From Stappia sp. BW2 (GTDB taxonomy: Bacteria; Pseudomonadota; Alphaproteobacteria; Rhizobiales; Stappiaceae): DNA of 64,000 nucleotides. The position numbers and the translations under genes were made by a program. A model generated the notes under the pieces. It was not told the DNA's origin, did no database searches, and worked only from the letters and a program-made list of their open reading frames with translations. Of the stretch, positions 6,409-27,551 are shown in pieces (the stretch's first letter is position 1; each line of letters begins with the position of its first letter). The stretch covers positions 124,001 through 188,000 of the forward strand of contig NZ_VIRG01000058.1 of NCBI RefSeq assembly GCF_008107695.1, written 5' to 3'.

Positions 6409-6757
6409 GTATCCTCACTTTCTCGCGAAAAGTGCGTAGGACGCCTTTTAAAAGACCAGAAACGGTGCGGAGTGGGCTGGCCTCCTGAAGGGCCAATGGG
6501 CACGACGCAGTGGCCAATCTCGCCCCATGCGCAATGCTGTTTTAAGCCCTCAGACGCCCTTCTGGGCAGCCCCTGACGCCAACGCCTCCTCCGTCTGCGG
6601 CATCGTTGATGGTTTGGTGCAGTCAGGGCAGAGCTCGCCGGAAAAAACATACAGAAAAGACAAGAAATGCACTCAAAACGAGTGAAAAGATTACAGTAAA
6701 TCCGTGAAAACTGTCTCCCAATTAGGTGAACCTGCCTTCACTGATAATTTACGAAAA

Positions 6758-6773
6758 TCATTAAGAATAATGA
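6758..6773. promoter_or_regulatory. Palindrome TCATTA-AGAA-TAATGA before the chemoreceptor gene
   Basis: A perfect 6-bp inverted repeat with a 4-base spacer, 24 bases upstream of ATG 6797 in AT-rich DNA. Its position, between any promoter and the start codon, suits an operator; no local regulator gene is paired with it. Confidence 0.4.
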
Positions 6774-6796
6774 CAATGTTTACCTTGGGGGTGGCT

Positions 6797-8512
6797 ATGA
6801 AGAATTTACTGTCTAAGTTGAGTGTGACTTCAACGCTTGCAATTATTTCTGCGAGCGTTCTTGGAATTTCGATGATCGTTGTGGGCTTTATCCTCTACCA
6901 GGTAGCCCTTGGCCAGGCGCAGGATCGCGCCCAGATCAAGCAGAATATCAACCTGCGTGTTGCTGCCACGCTGCTGGAGGACCGCATCGACGGGGCAAAG
7001 GTCACCTGGGACGCAAAAAGCAACGTCCAGCGGATCGAAATCGCCGAAATGCCGGAATTCGAAAACCATGACATGATCGACGCCGTCGGGCGCATGACAG
7101 GCGAAACCGCGACTGTTTTTGCCTGGGATCCTGAAACGAAGGATTTCTGGCGCAAGACCACCAACATCATCAAGGGTGACGGCAAGCGTGCCGTCGGAAC
7201 CCAGCTTGGCCAGAACGGCGCGGTTTATCCTGTCGTGACAAACGGCAAGACCTTCCACGGTCAGGCCACCATTCTCGGCAAGGACTATTTCACCGTCTAT
7301 CAGCCGATCTTCTCCACCAACGGCGATATTCTCGGCATCCTTTACGCCGGCGTGGAAAAGGCTGCGGTCGAGGCACACGCATGGGAACTGACCAGCCGCT
7401 ACGCAATGCTGGCACTGCCGGTCGTTGCCGTTTCCGTGATCCTCCTCATCCTTGCCATCCGCCGCCAGTTGCGCCCGATTACGAGACTTGCGGAAATCAC
7501 CGATCAGATTGCGCAGGACAACCTTGCTGACGAAGTTCCCTTCAAGGAGCGTTCCGACCAGATCGGTACATTGGCCCAGGCCGTCAGCACACTGCGTCAG
7601 CGCGCCGTCGAGCGGATTGAACTGACCGAGAACCAGCGCACGTCCGAGGCTGAGGCCGTTGACCGGCAAAGCCGGGTTCAGCAGCTGATTGAATCCTTCC
7701 GGACCAATGTGTCCAACGTGCTCAACTCGGTCAACGAAACCGTGCATGGCCTGGAAGGCACCGCAGGACGCCTCTCCGACCTCTCCGGCCAGAGCGCATC
7801 AAGTGCAACAGAAACGCTGAATTCTGCCGATGAAGCAACCTCGAGCGTCCAGACCGTGGCCAGTGCCGCCGAAGAACTCTCCGCTTCCATCAGCGAAATC
7901 TCCCGCCAGGTGGCGCAGACAACGGAGGTTGTTGGCCGTGCAACCGAAGGCACGCGCGTGACCAACGAGAAGGTGGAAGGCCTTGCGGCTTCCGCTTCCA
8001 AGATCGGTGAAGTGGTAACCCTCATTCAGGCAATTGCCGAGCAGACCAACCTGCTGGCCCTCAACGCCACCATCGAGGCGGCACGCGCTGGGGAAGCCGG
8101 CAAGGGCTTCGCGGTCGTCGCGGCTGAAGTGAAGGAACTGGCCACCCAGACCTCCAAGGCAACCGAGGAGATCAGTGCGCAGATCACCGCCATTCAGGAC
8201 GCCACGAAGGATTCCGTCGGTGCGATTGCGGAAATCACCAAGATCATGGAAGAGGTGAATTCCTACACCAGCACCATCGCCGCAGCCGTGAGCCAGCAAG
8301 GCTCGGCAACCGGTGAGATATCGCAGAACGCCCAGAACGCTGCCGAAGGCACCACGTTCGTCTCGTCCTGCATGTCCGACCTCTCAAGCGCCGTCAATCA
8401 GACGTCAGAGGCCTCTCACTCGGTTCTCGACGCGTCGGAATTGCTGTCGGCGCGCACGGAAGAGCTGAAACAGGAAGTGGAAACCTTCCTGAACGGTGTC
8501 GCTGCTGCCTGA
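6797..8512 (+). CDS. Methyl-accepting chemotaxis protein with Cache sensor
   Basis: Inner-membrane chemoreceptor of 571 residues. ATG 6797 is chosen over an upstream GTG because TTGGGGGTGG precedes it and the first membrane helix (13-36) then begins normally. The periplasmic part (37-202) has the Cache_3-Cache_2 pattern: [42 protein letters not shown] and [12 protein letters not shown] second helix (203-221) leads into a HAMP domain (222-275) and the signalling hairpin tip [20 protein letters not shown]. It would sense a small organic ligand and control CheA/CheW. No che genes are nearby. A strong terminator follows. Confidence 0.95.
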
Positions 8513-23564: not shown

Positions 23565-23660
23565 TCCGGCTCCGCCGCCTTCAGGTCTCCCCTCCTGGTG
23601 GCGGGCTCATCGAGCTCCCTGAAAGGCTGGGGGCAACTGCTCCCTGGCCTCGTACAGCCT

Positions 23661-23692
23661 GACCAGCCCGTGTCTCACGGGCTGGTCTTTTC
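23661..23692 (+). terminator. Rho-independent terminator after ccr
   Basis: GACCAGCCCGTG and CACGGGCTGGTC make a 12-bp perfect stem with a TCT triloop, followed by a T-rich tract, about 97 bases after the ccr stop. Confidence 0.85.
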
Positions 23693-23772
23693 CTTTTCGA
23701 CATCCGGGCGGTGGCAACCCGCCCCGTGAAGGCGTGCCGGCTTCAAGGCCACGTTGTGGCTCGTGACGTGAC

Positions 23773-25914
23773 TTAAGCTGCACGCACCGATTCAAGAAAC
23801 TTGCTGATATTCTGATTTATCTCATCAGCAGTGGTCGAAACCTCGAGTGAAGCGGACTTCACAAGTTCCGAGGATTGTTTCGTTTCTTCGGCCGACATCG
23901 ACACATCTTGAATATTTGTGGCAACGATCGACGTACCTTGAGCAGCTTCCTGAACATTCCGCGAAATTTCGTTTGTCGCGGAACTTTGCTGTTCAGCAGA
24001 GGAGGCGATTGCAGCAGAATAGTCACGCACCGAATTCATGGTCGCAGAAATCTTCTCGATTGCAGCGACAGCGTTGCTGGTAGAGCCCTGAATCGCGGAT
24101 ATTTGTTCAGCAATTTCACTTGTCGCCTTTGAAGTCTGGTCGGCCAACGCCTTGACTTCCGTGGCAACAACGGCAAATCCCTTGCCAGCTTCGCCTGCAC
24201 GTGCGGCCTCGATTGTCGCGTTAAGCGCAAGGAGGTTTGTTTGTGCTGCGATGTCGGTAATGATATTTACAACGTCACCGATACGTTCAACGGTGTTGGC
24301 CAGCCCGACAATTTCATCACTAGCCGTGCTGACGTCTTGATCGGCCTGCAAGACCACATCACCTGTCGTCTTGATTTGCTGTTGTATTTCATTGATTGAC
24401 TGCGACAATTCTTCGGCCGCGGCTGCGACTGCCTGAACATTCCGAGCGGCTTCTTCAGACGATCCGAATGCCCCGTTTGATTTTTCCGTCGTCATTTCGG
24501 CAACATTTCCAAGCCCATCGGCAGTCTCGCGCAAACTGGTCGCGGTATTTTGCGCTTGCTCCATCAAGTTTGCGACGTTGCTTTCAAAGTCGGAGATGAG
24601 ATTGGAGATGACATTTTGACGTTGCTGTTCAACCGAGTTCGCTTCCGCCTGCTGATGGCGCAGGTTCTCGGCTTCGATCGCATTGTCTTTGAATACCTGC
24701 AAGGCAGAGGCCATCTGGCCGATTTCATCACGACTGACCTTGGGAACAACGGCTTCCAGATCACCTTGCGACAAGGCAAGGGTTGTATGGTTCAGCGCCA
24801 CCAGCCGCCGAACGACACGTCTTTCAACGTAGAATAAGCCGATCAACGCGGAAAGGACCACCGACGCGATTGACAGCACGATCATCAACATGAAAGCGAA
24901 CGAAGTCAGTCGTTTCATATCGGATTTGGCTGAGGCGATGTTGTCCTTGGATATCCTGACAGTGTCTAGAACGGATGCTTCAAGTTCCTTGGTGCTTTGT
25001 TGCAAATCCGCCTGAAGAGCAGCCATCTCGTCTTTCGTTTCAATACGATTGACATTGATGGAGTGAAAGCTCTCTTCAGTTCCTGTGTCTACCAAGGATT
25101 GGATCTCAGACAAGACTGCCAGAGCTTGTTTTTTGCGGTCGGGATCATCAATTTTTTCTGCATTCCGACCCAGAGAGACAAGCAACGCTTCAACTTGTGC
25201 TTCAGCCTGCTCTATCTCTTCAAGTGTCTGCGCGTTCTTCACCAGACCAATACTGTGTTCGACGGCGAGGGCGTTCGCCTTGAAGCTTGTCATGGCGTCC
25301 GAGTAAAACAGCTGGATATCCAGCAAATCGTCGAGAGTGGCAAAAACAGCGTCAACGTTATCGCTGTCTTCAACGATATCGTACAATGTGGACACTGAAT
25401 TCGTTACACTGGATTTCGAATTCGCGACAAGCGTCTCAGAAAGATCTATCAGGTCTTTCGCGTGCGCTTTAATTTCTTCTTCGACCAAATCACCATTATT
25501 ACTAAGCTCTATGCGTGCATTGGTGAGTTCGGTGTACGTTTTCAGCTTTCCGGTCAGAGATTCAATTTCTGACGCCAGCTTGGAATTTGCTTCTTGCTGA
25601 CCGCCAAGCTCCCCCAACTTGTTCACGGCATCGTTCGCTTTCATCATCGCGCTTTGAAGAGAAGCTTCGATGCCGGAAATTTCTTCAAGGTTTTGCGCCT
25701 GATCCAACATGCCGGTCATGTTGGTGAGCAAGATGCCGTTCACGTAGAGGTCTTTTGCCGCCTCCGACGAAGGCATATCGACGTCGAGAACGGATGCCTG
25801 TTCCTTGTTCATGGAACTCAATGCAAACATCCCTGTCGCCGATGAAACAAGCACCATTGCGGTGACGACGCCAAATGCTCCCAGCAGGCCGGTTTTTACG
25901 GTAAGACCCTTCAT
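23773..25914 (-). CDS. Methyl-accepting chemotaxis protein with TorS-sized helical ectodomain
   Basis: Chemoreceptor of 713 residues; ATG 25914 follows TGGGGGT, while the frame extends to a TTG four codons earlier. Membrane helix 1 is at 7-31. The periplasmic region (33-337, about 305 residues) is predicted all-helical with long heptad-like stretches and no Cache pattern. Helix 2 is at 338-362, HAMP at 363-415, and the signalling tip [20 protein letters not shown] is intact. The ectodomain matches the TorS sensor in size and character, and the upstream co-directional gene encodes a TorT-like protein that would dock on it. Base composition is visibly less GC-rich than neighbouring genes, hinting at transfer. 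Confidence 0.9.
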
Positions 25915-25937
25915 GTTAACCCCCAAAGTGTATGGAA

Positions 25938-25962
25938 AAAGGAGCGTGCGTCACGCTCCTTT
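25938..25962 (-). terminator. Intercistronic hairpin between torT-like and chemoreceptor genes
   Basis: AAAGGAGCGTG and CACGCTCCTTT form an 11-bp perfect stem with a 3-base loop. On the minus strand it is followed by more T residues. It lies in the 62-base gap between two otherwise operonic genes, so it probably acts as a partial terminator or an mRNA end protector, giving more periplasmic protein than receptor. Confidence 0.7.
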
Positions 25963-25976
25963 GTTTTCGTGTCCGC

Positions 25977-27029
25977 TCAGTCGACTTTGAAAGTCGGCTT
26001 GAAGTCGGAGGGGGCGAGCGATTCTTCGAGCGTGAAAGATTTCACATTCTCTTTGTTGACGTTGAAAATCGCGGGACCAACGTGGTCAGCTTCTACAGAA
26101 CCTTCAAGAAACCGAACGGCCTGGTCGACCGAAATCATCCCCTGCAGCGCCGCGCTGTCAGTCGGAGCGCTTGAGATCAAGCCCCGGCGAATTCCGCGAT
26201 AAATGGCTGGGGTGAAGTAATCCGAGACCAGTTTTACTTTGTCTTTCAGGCCCTTTTGCCGCACCACGCTCATCGCAACTTCAATCGCAACCGCGTTTCC
26301 GGCGATATAGTCCACATCAGGATGTTCTTCGAGAACGTCTTCAACAAGCTTTTGTTGAATTTCCTTGCCGGTATCGCCGTACTTGACGGCAACCAGGTCA
26401 ATGGAAGAGTCCTTGACGACTTCCCGGAAGCCCTCATCTGTGAACTTTACCCAGCCTGCGCTTTCCGGCCCAGGCAACCAAGCGACTTTGGGGGAATCCG
26501 ATCCCTTGGGATAGGTTTCGGAAAAATACCGGCCGGCCGAGCGGCCCATGTCGCGCCAATCGACGGCGGCCATTCCTGAAATTCCATCGGGCAAAATCGC
26601 ATTTACCGTAGCAAAGACAGGCTTCTTCTTGGAAGCTTCGACGACTGTTGGTGTCATCTGATCGTGCGATACAGTACCCAAGAGTATTGCGTCGTAGTTT
26701 CCATCAGCGCAGTCCGCCACTTGCTGCTTTTGCTTTTCGAGATTGGGATATCCCCCTGCCTCGAAAAGATCGACAGCCACGCCAATTTTCTGCGCATGCG
26801 CAACAACACCGTAGTTTGTCGCGACCCAATAGGGGTCTTTCAGATGCGGAAAAATGACGCAAAGGTTCCACTTCTTGGAAGCCTTCTCGACAGCTGTATA
26901 ACTGGCATCTTCTGGCGAGTTCGAGAAATCATACGCGGGTGTCCACTTGTCGACCTCCCAGGTCTGCCCGAATGCGGCGGAGATTGAAAATGCGGCAATT
27001 CCAACCGCTAATGAAGTCCCTTTGAGCAT
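25977..27029 (-). CDS. torT: TorT-like periplasmic TMAO-binding protein
   Basis: Protein of 350 residues with a signal peptide (1-21, cleavage after AAFG). It matches TorT along its length: KKWNLCVIFPHLKDPYWVAT, FEAGGYPNLEKQKQQVADC, YDAILLGTVSHD and VDWRDMGRSAGRYF. TorT binds trimethylamine N-oxide in the periplasm and presents it to the TorS sensor kinase. Here no torS, torR, torC or torA is seen; instead a chemoreceptor gene follows 62 bases downstream. AAGGAC precedes ATG 27029. The role as a TMAO (or related N-oxide) chemotaxis binding protein is inferred. Confidence 0.85.
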   Translation of the reverse strand: MLKGTSLAVGIAAFSISAAFGQTWEVDKWTPAYDFSNSPEDASYTAVEKASKKWNLCVIFPHLKDPYWVATNYGVVAHAQKIGVAVDLFEAGGYPNLEKQKQQVADCADGNYDAILLGTVSHDQMTPTVVEASKKKPVFATVNAILPDGISGMAAVDWRDMGRSAGRYFSETYPKGSDSPKVAWLPGPESAGWVKFTDEGFREVVKDSSIDLVAVKYGDTGKEIQQKLVEDVLEEHPDVDYIAGNAVAIEVAMSVVRQKGLKDKVKLVSDYFTPAIYRGIRRGLISSAPTDSAALQGMISVDQAVRFLEGSVEADHVGPAIFNVNKENVKSFTLEESLAPSDFKPTFKVD

Positions 27030-27058
27030 GTCCTTTTATCCCTCAGCTGTTCTGAAAT

Positions 27059-27123
27059 CGATTTCTACTTTAAGTAGCTTTAGTATAGGCATAGTCATTT
27101 CTGACAATGCGGCGATTTCTACT
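27059..27123. promoter_or_regulatory. Direct repeat CGATTTCTACT upstream of the torT-like gene
   Basis: Two identical 11-base copies, 54 bases apart start to start, the nearer one 30 bases upstream of the torT-like start. Direct repeats at this position suit binding by a response regulator, but they do not match the known TorR box. Confidence 0.4.
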
Positions 27124-27188
27124 AGAATATTTCAACATTTTCCTGAAGATGGAGTTAATGACTTTTCCTGAGCGAGTAATGTAAGTTC

Positions 27189-27208
27189 TATGTATGAAGT
27201 AATACATA
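27189..27208. promoter_or_regulatory. Inverted repeat TATGTAT-GAAGTA-ATACATA
   Basis: Perfect 7-bp arms in very AT-rich DNA, 160 bases upstream of the torT-like start. It is a possible protein-binding site. Confidence 0.35.
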
Positions 27209-27501
27209 TAGATTCATTTTTTAACGCTTAGGCAGTTTAAGAGCTGCGATTTCGACCAACTCGAAGTCCGGCTAGGGAAAACAGGTTCAGATGGCTAGTG
27301 ATTTGGCCGCCTGAACCGAACAATGTCGGATGTCGCAAACGCACTGAAACAACTTGGCGATGTCTTCCGGAGAGTTTCCCGTCCCGTCCTCATCGGCTCC
27401 CGCTGACCGGCTTGTGCACCGGTTTCAAAGGACACACGCCGCAATTCTGCTCAAGTGTCGTCCCATCACCTTCCCAAGCGGGGCGAATCATGTGCCTCAA
27501 T

Positions 27502-27520
27502 GGGGTGTAGACCCATAAAT
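27502..27520 (+). repeat. Recurrent motif, copy C (GGGGTGTAGACCCATAAAT)
   Basis: Third copy of the intergenic motif, ending 31 bases before the CAP-domain lipoprotein start. The following GAGCTTCAACAGCG resembles sequence after copy B, suggesting that the shared element is longer than the 18-19 base core. Confidence 0.6.
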
Positions 27521-27551
27521 CTCTTTGATTCTGAGCGGGAGCTTCAACAGC

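Follow-up and report, generated by a model that had tools for sequence, protein, structure and literature searches.

A TorT-type binding protein gene paired with a chemoreceptor gene encoding a TorS-type sensor domain in Stappia sp. BW2

Chemoreceptors that are activated by periplasmic binding proteins have been described. The available part of PMC6321045 lists maltose-binding protein-Tar, LsrB-Tsr, and PstS-CtpL, and cites TorT-TorS as the case in which the receptor is a kinase. In the available text of PMC6381276, the entry TorS-like (IPR038188) is given for the TorS kinase. A swimming response to TMAO is known from Shewanella oneidensis, where, according to an excerpt of PMC9796306, it is energy taxis: the response requires respiration of TMAO, and the compound itself goes undetected. 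In this study, we analysed a 64,000-nucleotide stretch of the Stappia sp. BW2 genome (hereafter the window), in which a torT-type gene is followed by a gene for a chemoreceptor (MCP). We conclude, with a probability of about 0.78, that the two genes encode a chemosensory unit that is driven by a binding protein and descends from TorT-TorS, the TMAO sensor. A sequence-only reading of the window had proposed that the TorT-TorS unit was rewired to chemotaxis, and this proposal is well supported by the TorS homology and fold of the receptor, by the pairing of the genes, and by the single clade that the pair forms in two trees. Binding-protein-driven chemoreceptors are already known; a TorT-TorS sensing module on a chemoreceptor appears to be new. 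No TorT-MCP pair is described in the titles and abstract openings of the literature matches listed, a scope from which subscription literature is mostly absent.

The gene pair and the receptor ectodomain

The features of the locus are listed in Table 1. The two open reading frames are on the same strand and separated by 50 bases, with the MCP gene directly downstream of torT; the sequence-only reading had placed them in one operon, and its coordinates are exact. The torT product exceeded both curated cut-offs in profile searches (NF008185, 389.3 bits, cut-off 200; TIGR02955, 327.6 bits, cut-off 310) and matched the solved TorT chain 3o1h_B in a search of PDB sequences (E 1.6e-64); it is a clear TorT homologue, as first read. 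A signal-peptide-like stretch was recognised by eye at its N-terminus, and the protein is presumed to be the ligand-binding subunit of the pair. Its AF2 model, built from three sequences, was too poor for use (pLDDT 57.3).

Table 1. Features of the torT-mcp locus, in window coordinates
Feature	Position	Strand	Description and basis
torT-type periplasmic binding protein	25977..27029	-	350-aa ORF; TIGR02955 and NF008185 over cut-off
Chemoreceptor (MCP)	23773..25926	-	717 aa from TTG; MCPsignal and HAMP over cut-off
Periplasmic TorS-type sensor domain	24916..25824	-	MCP residues 35-337; PF21689 over cut-off
TM2 and HAMP	24667..24915	-	MCP residues 338-420; blastp
Adaptation helices and signalling hairpin	23773..24627	-	tip of 27 protein letters (not shown)
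torT-mcp intergenic hairpin	25938..25962	-	11-bp stem, 3-nt loop; z -2.93
Upstream region common with congener's cassette	27030..27235	-	terminal part of the block with 87.7% identity to L047
Cassette homologous to that of congener G071	23769..27235	.	low-GC stretch between ccr and CAP-domain gene

The MCP probably starts at the ATG at 25914, which gives 713 aa. Its reading frame is intact, and the product has the conserved hairpin tip, two hydrophobic segments, and profile matches to MCPsignal (103.2 bits, cut-off 34.6) and HAMP (34.3 bits, cut-off 25). Two peaks of hydropathy, spanning residues 18-36 and 344-362, flank an ectodomain of ~305 residues, the length that the sequence-only reading had given. 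That reading had likened the ectodomain to the TorS sensor by size. The ectodomain matched TorS_sensor_domain PF21689 (69.9 bits, E 3.2e-19, cut-off 27), and the TorS model TIGR02956 covered MCP residues 14-438 only (141.6 bits, cut-off 676.5). Because both models match the ectodomain, the argument from size becomes one of homology. By the TIGR02956 score, the protein is not a full-length TorS histidine kinase with kinase and receiver domains.

The structural comparison agrees with the profiles. In a search against PDB sequences, the ectodomain matched TorS (3i9w, E 1.6e-7). The AF2 model of the ectodomain, made with two relatives, had a pLDDT of 87.5 and was all helix, as had been predicted. 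Foldseek returned six PDB matches at E<=0.001, all of them TorS sensor chains (TM 0.69-0.76 by query length, 0.81-0.89 by target length). The top match (E 4.2e-10, TM 0.76/0.84) was 3o1h_A, from the TMAO-bound TorS-TorT complex. Among chemoreceptor domains, McpZ (E 0.0068, TM 0.42) and PilJ (E 0.011, TM 0.43) came next, and the McpS chains followed at E 0.012-0.032 (TM 0.47-0.53 by query length). A chance match of a long helical bundle was rejected because the best hit in a control library of viral proteins reached E 7.2e-4 with a TM of only 0.25. An HBM ectodomain was rejected as well: PF16591 gave no profile match at E<=1, and McpS ranked far below TorS in fold. Neither Cache nor HBM families were among the MCP matches at E<=1 (HMMER, filters on), in keeping with the lack of a Cache pattern noticed earlier. 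The likeness to the TorS sensor, whose absence would have told against the rewiring proposal, is thus present and specific at the level of Pfam, PDB sequence, and fold.

The kinase-chemoreceptor junction and the signalling half

The position of the junction was approached by blastp. Of the sequences compared outside the TorT-MCP clade, a TorS (L055) came closest to TM2 plus HAMP, with 59.6 bits against 42.6 bits for the best MCP of its own genome; for HAMP alone the gap was smaller (50.7 against 42.6 bits). The stretch after HAMP matched an own-genome MCP with 40.1 bits and had no TorS match. Judged from these alignments, the TorS-like part of the MCP ends about at HAMP. The kinase half of TorS would have been replaced by an MCP half, most simply once, at about this point.

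The genome has 29 further signalling domains that were aligned to the one of this MCP; 17 of them aligned without gaps or insertions, and the remaining ones differ by 1-21 positions, partly from shorter local matches. The genome contains 31 MCP signalling domains at E<=1e-10 and one CheA. A CheA was found in four of the five TorT-MCP genomes, and the fifth (G642) is 86% complete. MCP signalling domains in general can serve non-motility pathways, which leaves room for an output in biofilm, c-di-GMP, or gene expression rather than swimming; against this speak the gap-free alignments to resident domains and the CheA, and we regard such an output as unlikely.

Partners, phylogeny, and genomic setting

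At the survey threshold of E<=1e-35, the TorT model matched in 42 of the 397 genomes from the order, in 21 of 385 in the class sample, and in 26 of 398 in the phylum sample; these sets have genomes in common. For PF21689 (E<=0.001), genomes with a match numbered 9 of 87 in the family and 56 of 385 in the class. Of the 98 TorT-bearing loci collected, 55 have an ABC ATPase and permease, while TorS is present at 27 and an MCP at 5; the rest were 2 partial ABC matches and 9 others, several at contig ends. The set is not an unbiased census: PF21689 searches contributed several of the TorS loci as well as the congener locus, and a related-locus search by TorT alone contributed two loci. The partial genes L217 and L218, on two contigs of one genome, may be one gene, and L155 and L219 were left out as duplicates of L045 and L053. 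L045 and L155 (genome G778, same order) gave identical match scores and lie on contigs of equal length.

The five TorT-MCP loci are from five genomes: the window, L047 of the same genus, L045 of a Hyphomicrobiales MAG, and L154 and L157 of two other families of the order. The survey of such pairs that the sequence-only reading had suggested yielded these five loci that form one clade in both trees. At all five, the MCP is directly downstream of torT on the same strand. At the TorT-TorS loci, the genes are on opposite strands (27/27, two duplicate loci removed), and torS and torT are divergent in E. coli too, as stated in the available part of PMC6814406. The ABC ATPase/permease type seen with other TorTs was absent at 5/5 TorT-MCP loci; at L154, the next gene after the MCP, in the same direction, encodes another ABC ATPase.

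The MCP-paired TorTs formed one clade (100/100) inside a clade of 33 rows (100/98), the other rows of which are TorS-paired TorTs, the contig-end-cut L168, and the V. parahaemolyticus chain. The alignment excluded L052 (contig end) and rows with <140 bits or <200 matched residues. The ectodomains of the TorT-linked MCPs also formed one clade (100/100), in a tree without the partial L193 and L194 and with 8 of the 25 loci L014-L038, those in which the ectodomain model matched near-whole (17 dropped). This clade grouped with the TorS kinases and not with the TorT-less MCPs; the deeper split was weak (69/90), and a sister position of the TorT-less MCP L057 was compatible with the data (p-AU 0.11). 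One clade in both trees fits one partner switch followed by joint inheritance. Within the clade, the ectodomain has diverged widely: identity to L045 is 70% for TorT and 32% for the ectodomain, and the ectodomain is 27% identical to that of L157.

These data bear on whether the MCP senses its ligand directly, with TorT as an unrelated passenger. Within the class to which Stappia belongs, other MCPs do carry TorS-type ectodomains and have no TorT nearby. Fourteen of the 26 PF21689 loci L013-L038 hold an MCP signalling match with no TorT within ~1.5 kb, and L057 has no TorT in 13 kb; hence, the domain alone is no proof of TorT dependence. Against direct sensing stand the fixed adjacency at 5/5 loci, the single clade in both trees, and the finding that the best matches of the ectodomain outside its clade are TorS proteins paired with TorT. 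We consider a passenger TorT quite improbable. The adjacency, the concordant trees, and the TorS homology instead point to a TorT that would dock on the MCP ectodomain.

The pair appears to be foreign to its place. GC content is 50.2% in 23733-27369 and 60.5% in the rest of the window, and the cassette is 87.7% identical in DNA to the congener copy, which is on a different contig from that genome's ccr. TorT is 91% identical between the congeners, compared with 83% for CCR. In an empty-site comparison of 30 loci (the window and 29 relatives) among 86 genomes with a ccr match, the distance from ccr to the CAP-gene match was 165-1357 bases in 28 of the 29 related loci and 3961 in the window, measured by match ends, with some CAP matches partial. 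The flanks of L256 are homologous to the window up to 23732 and from 27370. The two nearest relatives have a different ORF at the cassette's spot, methyltransferase-like by eye. The 725-aa form of the MCP is present in 2 of 87 family genomes. The low GC, the shorter interval in relatives, and the other location in the congener make horizontal acquisition the simplest reading, and probably the correct one; differential loss is the alternative.

The third-position GC of the cassette is low, and its distribution is patchy. Together with the low overall GC and the 84% identity of the ectodomain to that of the congener (L047), these features might also be expected of a recently acquired, decaying relic without function. 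Both frames are intact in the window and the congener, and the protein identities of TorT (91%) and the signalling half (93%) exceed the DNA identity of the block, as under purifying selection. A relic is very improbable.

Ligand, proposed mechanism, and comparison with known systems

The sequence-only reading saw neither torS nor torA in view, and this holds: the MCP is the sole PF21689 match of the window genome, and its only bisC/TorA-family match at E<=1e-50 (588 bits, cut-off 1017.55) is located on a different contig. The classic setting of TorT, with a TorS-kinase partner and TMAO reductase genes nearby, is not found here. All five TorT-MCP genomes have a bisC/TorA-family match, and in none (0/5) is it near the pair; it is on another contig in four, mostly drafts, and >700 kb away in G565. 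Since only 11 of the 24 TorS genomes searched have such a match within ~5 kb of torT, the linkage is not universal. In other classes, the matches next to torT-torS likewise score just below the cut-off (998-1013 bits); hence, the cut-off says little on TMAO respiration.

Six positions of V. parahaemolyticus TorT, D42, Y44, W45, Y71, W140, and Y252, are taken by us to contact TMAO. The resulting string DYWYWY occurs in 5/5 MCP-paired TorTs, the window included, in 26/26 TorS-paired TorTs, and in 2/60 unpaired ones. One of these two unpaired TorTs is L168, which is cut at a contig end. The W140 position is F in at least 45 of the 60 unpaired TorTs and in two TorTs beside another kinase type. In these alignments, W140 separates receptor-paired TorTs from nearly all unpaired ones. 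This correlation is independent of the assignment of these positions as TMAO contacts; its reading as a TMAO box depends on that assignment.

The conserved pocket suggests TMAO or osmolyte taxis, as the sequence-only reading had it. The unit may also exist as described and bind another methylated amine, an osmolyte, or an unrelated small molecule, and we give this version a substantial, though minor, share of the odds. The TorT-model matches include many ABC-transporter binding proteins (55/98 loci; for example, L179, beside a LamB/YcsF gene), so the TorT name leaves the ligand unfixed. Identity to Vibrio TorT is only 39-41% among the MCP-paired TorTs, and the missing bisC/TorA-family neighbour points the same way. 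The retention of all six box positions and the behaviour of W140 argue for TMAO or a close relative.

The region upstream of torT (Table 1) is presumed to be the promoter/regulatory region. With a Tor-box consensus and <=2 mismatches, no match was found upstream of torT, and the 26 matches found against 22.56 expected were no excess. Read as an 8-bp GC-rich stem, the intergenic hairpin precedes the sense-strand sequence TTTTTCC; with the 11-bp stem, a terminator scan found it terminator-like only on the antisense strand. L047 has a near-identical hairpin (z -2.26), L045 and L154 have hairpins of unrelated sequence (z -3.69 and -2.59), and L157 has none (z +1.81). The hairpin might, at most, terminate transcription in part or protect the 3' end, and so hold TorT above the level of the receptor. 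In E. coli, the TMAO response is set by the TorS:TorT ratio, and a large TorS excess shuts it off (PMC6814406, in the part available); given this dependence, it would be sensible for a single operon to fix the ratio.

We propose the following mechanism. TorT would be secreted and would hold a small molecule in the aromatic box that it has in common with TorS-paired TorTs; TMAO, or a methylated amine or osmolyte close to it, is the most likely ligand. By analogy with TorT on TorS, and given the homology and fold, the docking site of TorT would be the TorS-type ectodomain in the MCP dimer. A ligand-driven rearrangement would then pass through TM2 to the HAMP domain; the homology of this segment to TorS is demonstrated, and its motion is supposed. 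From HAMP, the signal would reach a standard MCP signalling hairpin in the resident arrays, CheA, and swimming. An excess of TorT over the receptor may be maintained by operon order, perhaps with the help of the hairpin; this is the weakest step. Since the partner switch, torT and mcp would have been passed on together, probably with movement by horizontal transfer. A broader reading, that one ancient swap of the TorS kinase half for an MCP half created a mobile, self-contained cassette of ~3.5 kb that moves as a pair among alphaproteobacteria, gives hosts with compatible arrays direct, TorT-relayed taxis to TMAO-like compounds, and keeps TorT in excess through its operon layout, is tentative and falls somewhat short of even odds.

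If true, a sensor of gene regulation has been re-used for steering cells, probably toward TMAO-like compounds. The locus would represent a naturally occurring exchange of domains between sensor kinase and chemoreceptor, soluble partner included; because the partner came along, the same TorT-sensor interface can be compared with two outputs. The two-gene unit also suits testing how TorS-type helical bundles signal via HAMP.

TorT-TorS of E. coli and V. parahaemolyticus is the closest known system, with common TorT models, TorS sensor domain and fold, TM2/HAMP, and aromatic box. It differs in that an MCP here replaces the hybrid kinase as the receptor half, that the genes are co-directional with the MCP downstream rather than on opposite strands, and that no bisC/TorA-family match is near the pair. 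The HBM chemoreceptor McpS, with two helical bundles, resembles the present receptor in its all-helical bimodular ectodomain of similar size, but the receptor described here has no HBM match at E<=1, and McpS ranks far below TorS in fold. A swimming response to TMAO is predicted here, as in S. oneidensis; unlike the energy taxis described in the available part of PMC9796306, it would rest on direct detection of TMAO-like compounds through TorT. As in maltose-binding protein-Tar, LsrB-Tsr, and PstS-CtpL, a periplasmic binding protein is presumed to present the ligand to an MCP; the ectodomains of those systems are 4HB, HBM, or Cache, so far as the accessible part of PMC6321045 describes them, whereas that of the Stappia receptor is TorS-type and belongs to a pair related to a kinase sensor.

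The variable spot between ccr and the CAP-domain gene

The interval between ccr and the CAP-domain gene was compared with that of relatives and is a variable spot. It is short in many relatives and is occupied by torT-mcp in the window, whereas the two closest relatives (L256 and L257) have another ORF there, which on visual inspection resembles a methyltransferase gene. The window also encodes a second MCP, whose signalling domain is 46% identical to that of the torT-paired MCP.

Coordinates of the features discussed (L-numbers, homologous loci from other genomes)
Feature	Location	Remark
Second MCP	window 6704-8512	602 aa
ccr-CAP interval	window 23565-27524	
torT-paired MCP	window 23773-25926	
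ABC ATPase gene	L154 1308-2180	same strand as the TorT-MCP pair, directly downstream of it
MCP with TorS-type ectodomain	L057 4861-7083	

TorT-like genes in other contexts

Many matches to the curated TorT model are accompanied by an ABC ATPase and a permease (L179, which also has a LamB/YcsF gene, and 54 other loci). Most of these proteins carry F in place of W140 (V. parahaemolyticus TorT numbering), and the name TorT may be too broad for them. Kinases of approximately 1350 aa adjoin the TorT-like genes of L184 and L185, which likewise encode F at the W140 position. A profile search found no TorS-type ectodomain in these kinases, which are possibly a further partner type for TorT-like proteins. 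At L213, the TorT-like gene is apparently split into two overlapping frames.

Chemoreceptors with a TorS-type ectodomain

TorS-type ectodomains are also carried by MCPs of L057, L015, L016, L019, and L023. No TorT was found in the 13 kb covered for L057 or in the approximately 1.5-kb flanks of the other four. These MCPs may sense directly or have a different binding protein as partner.
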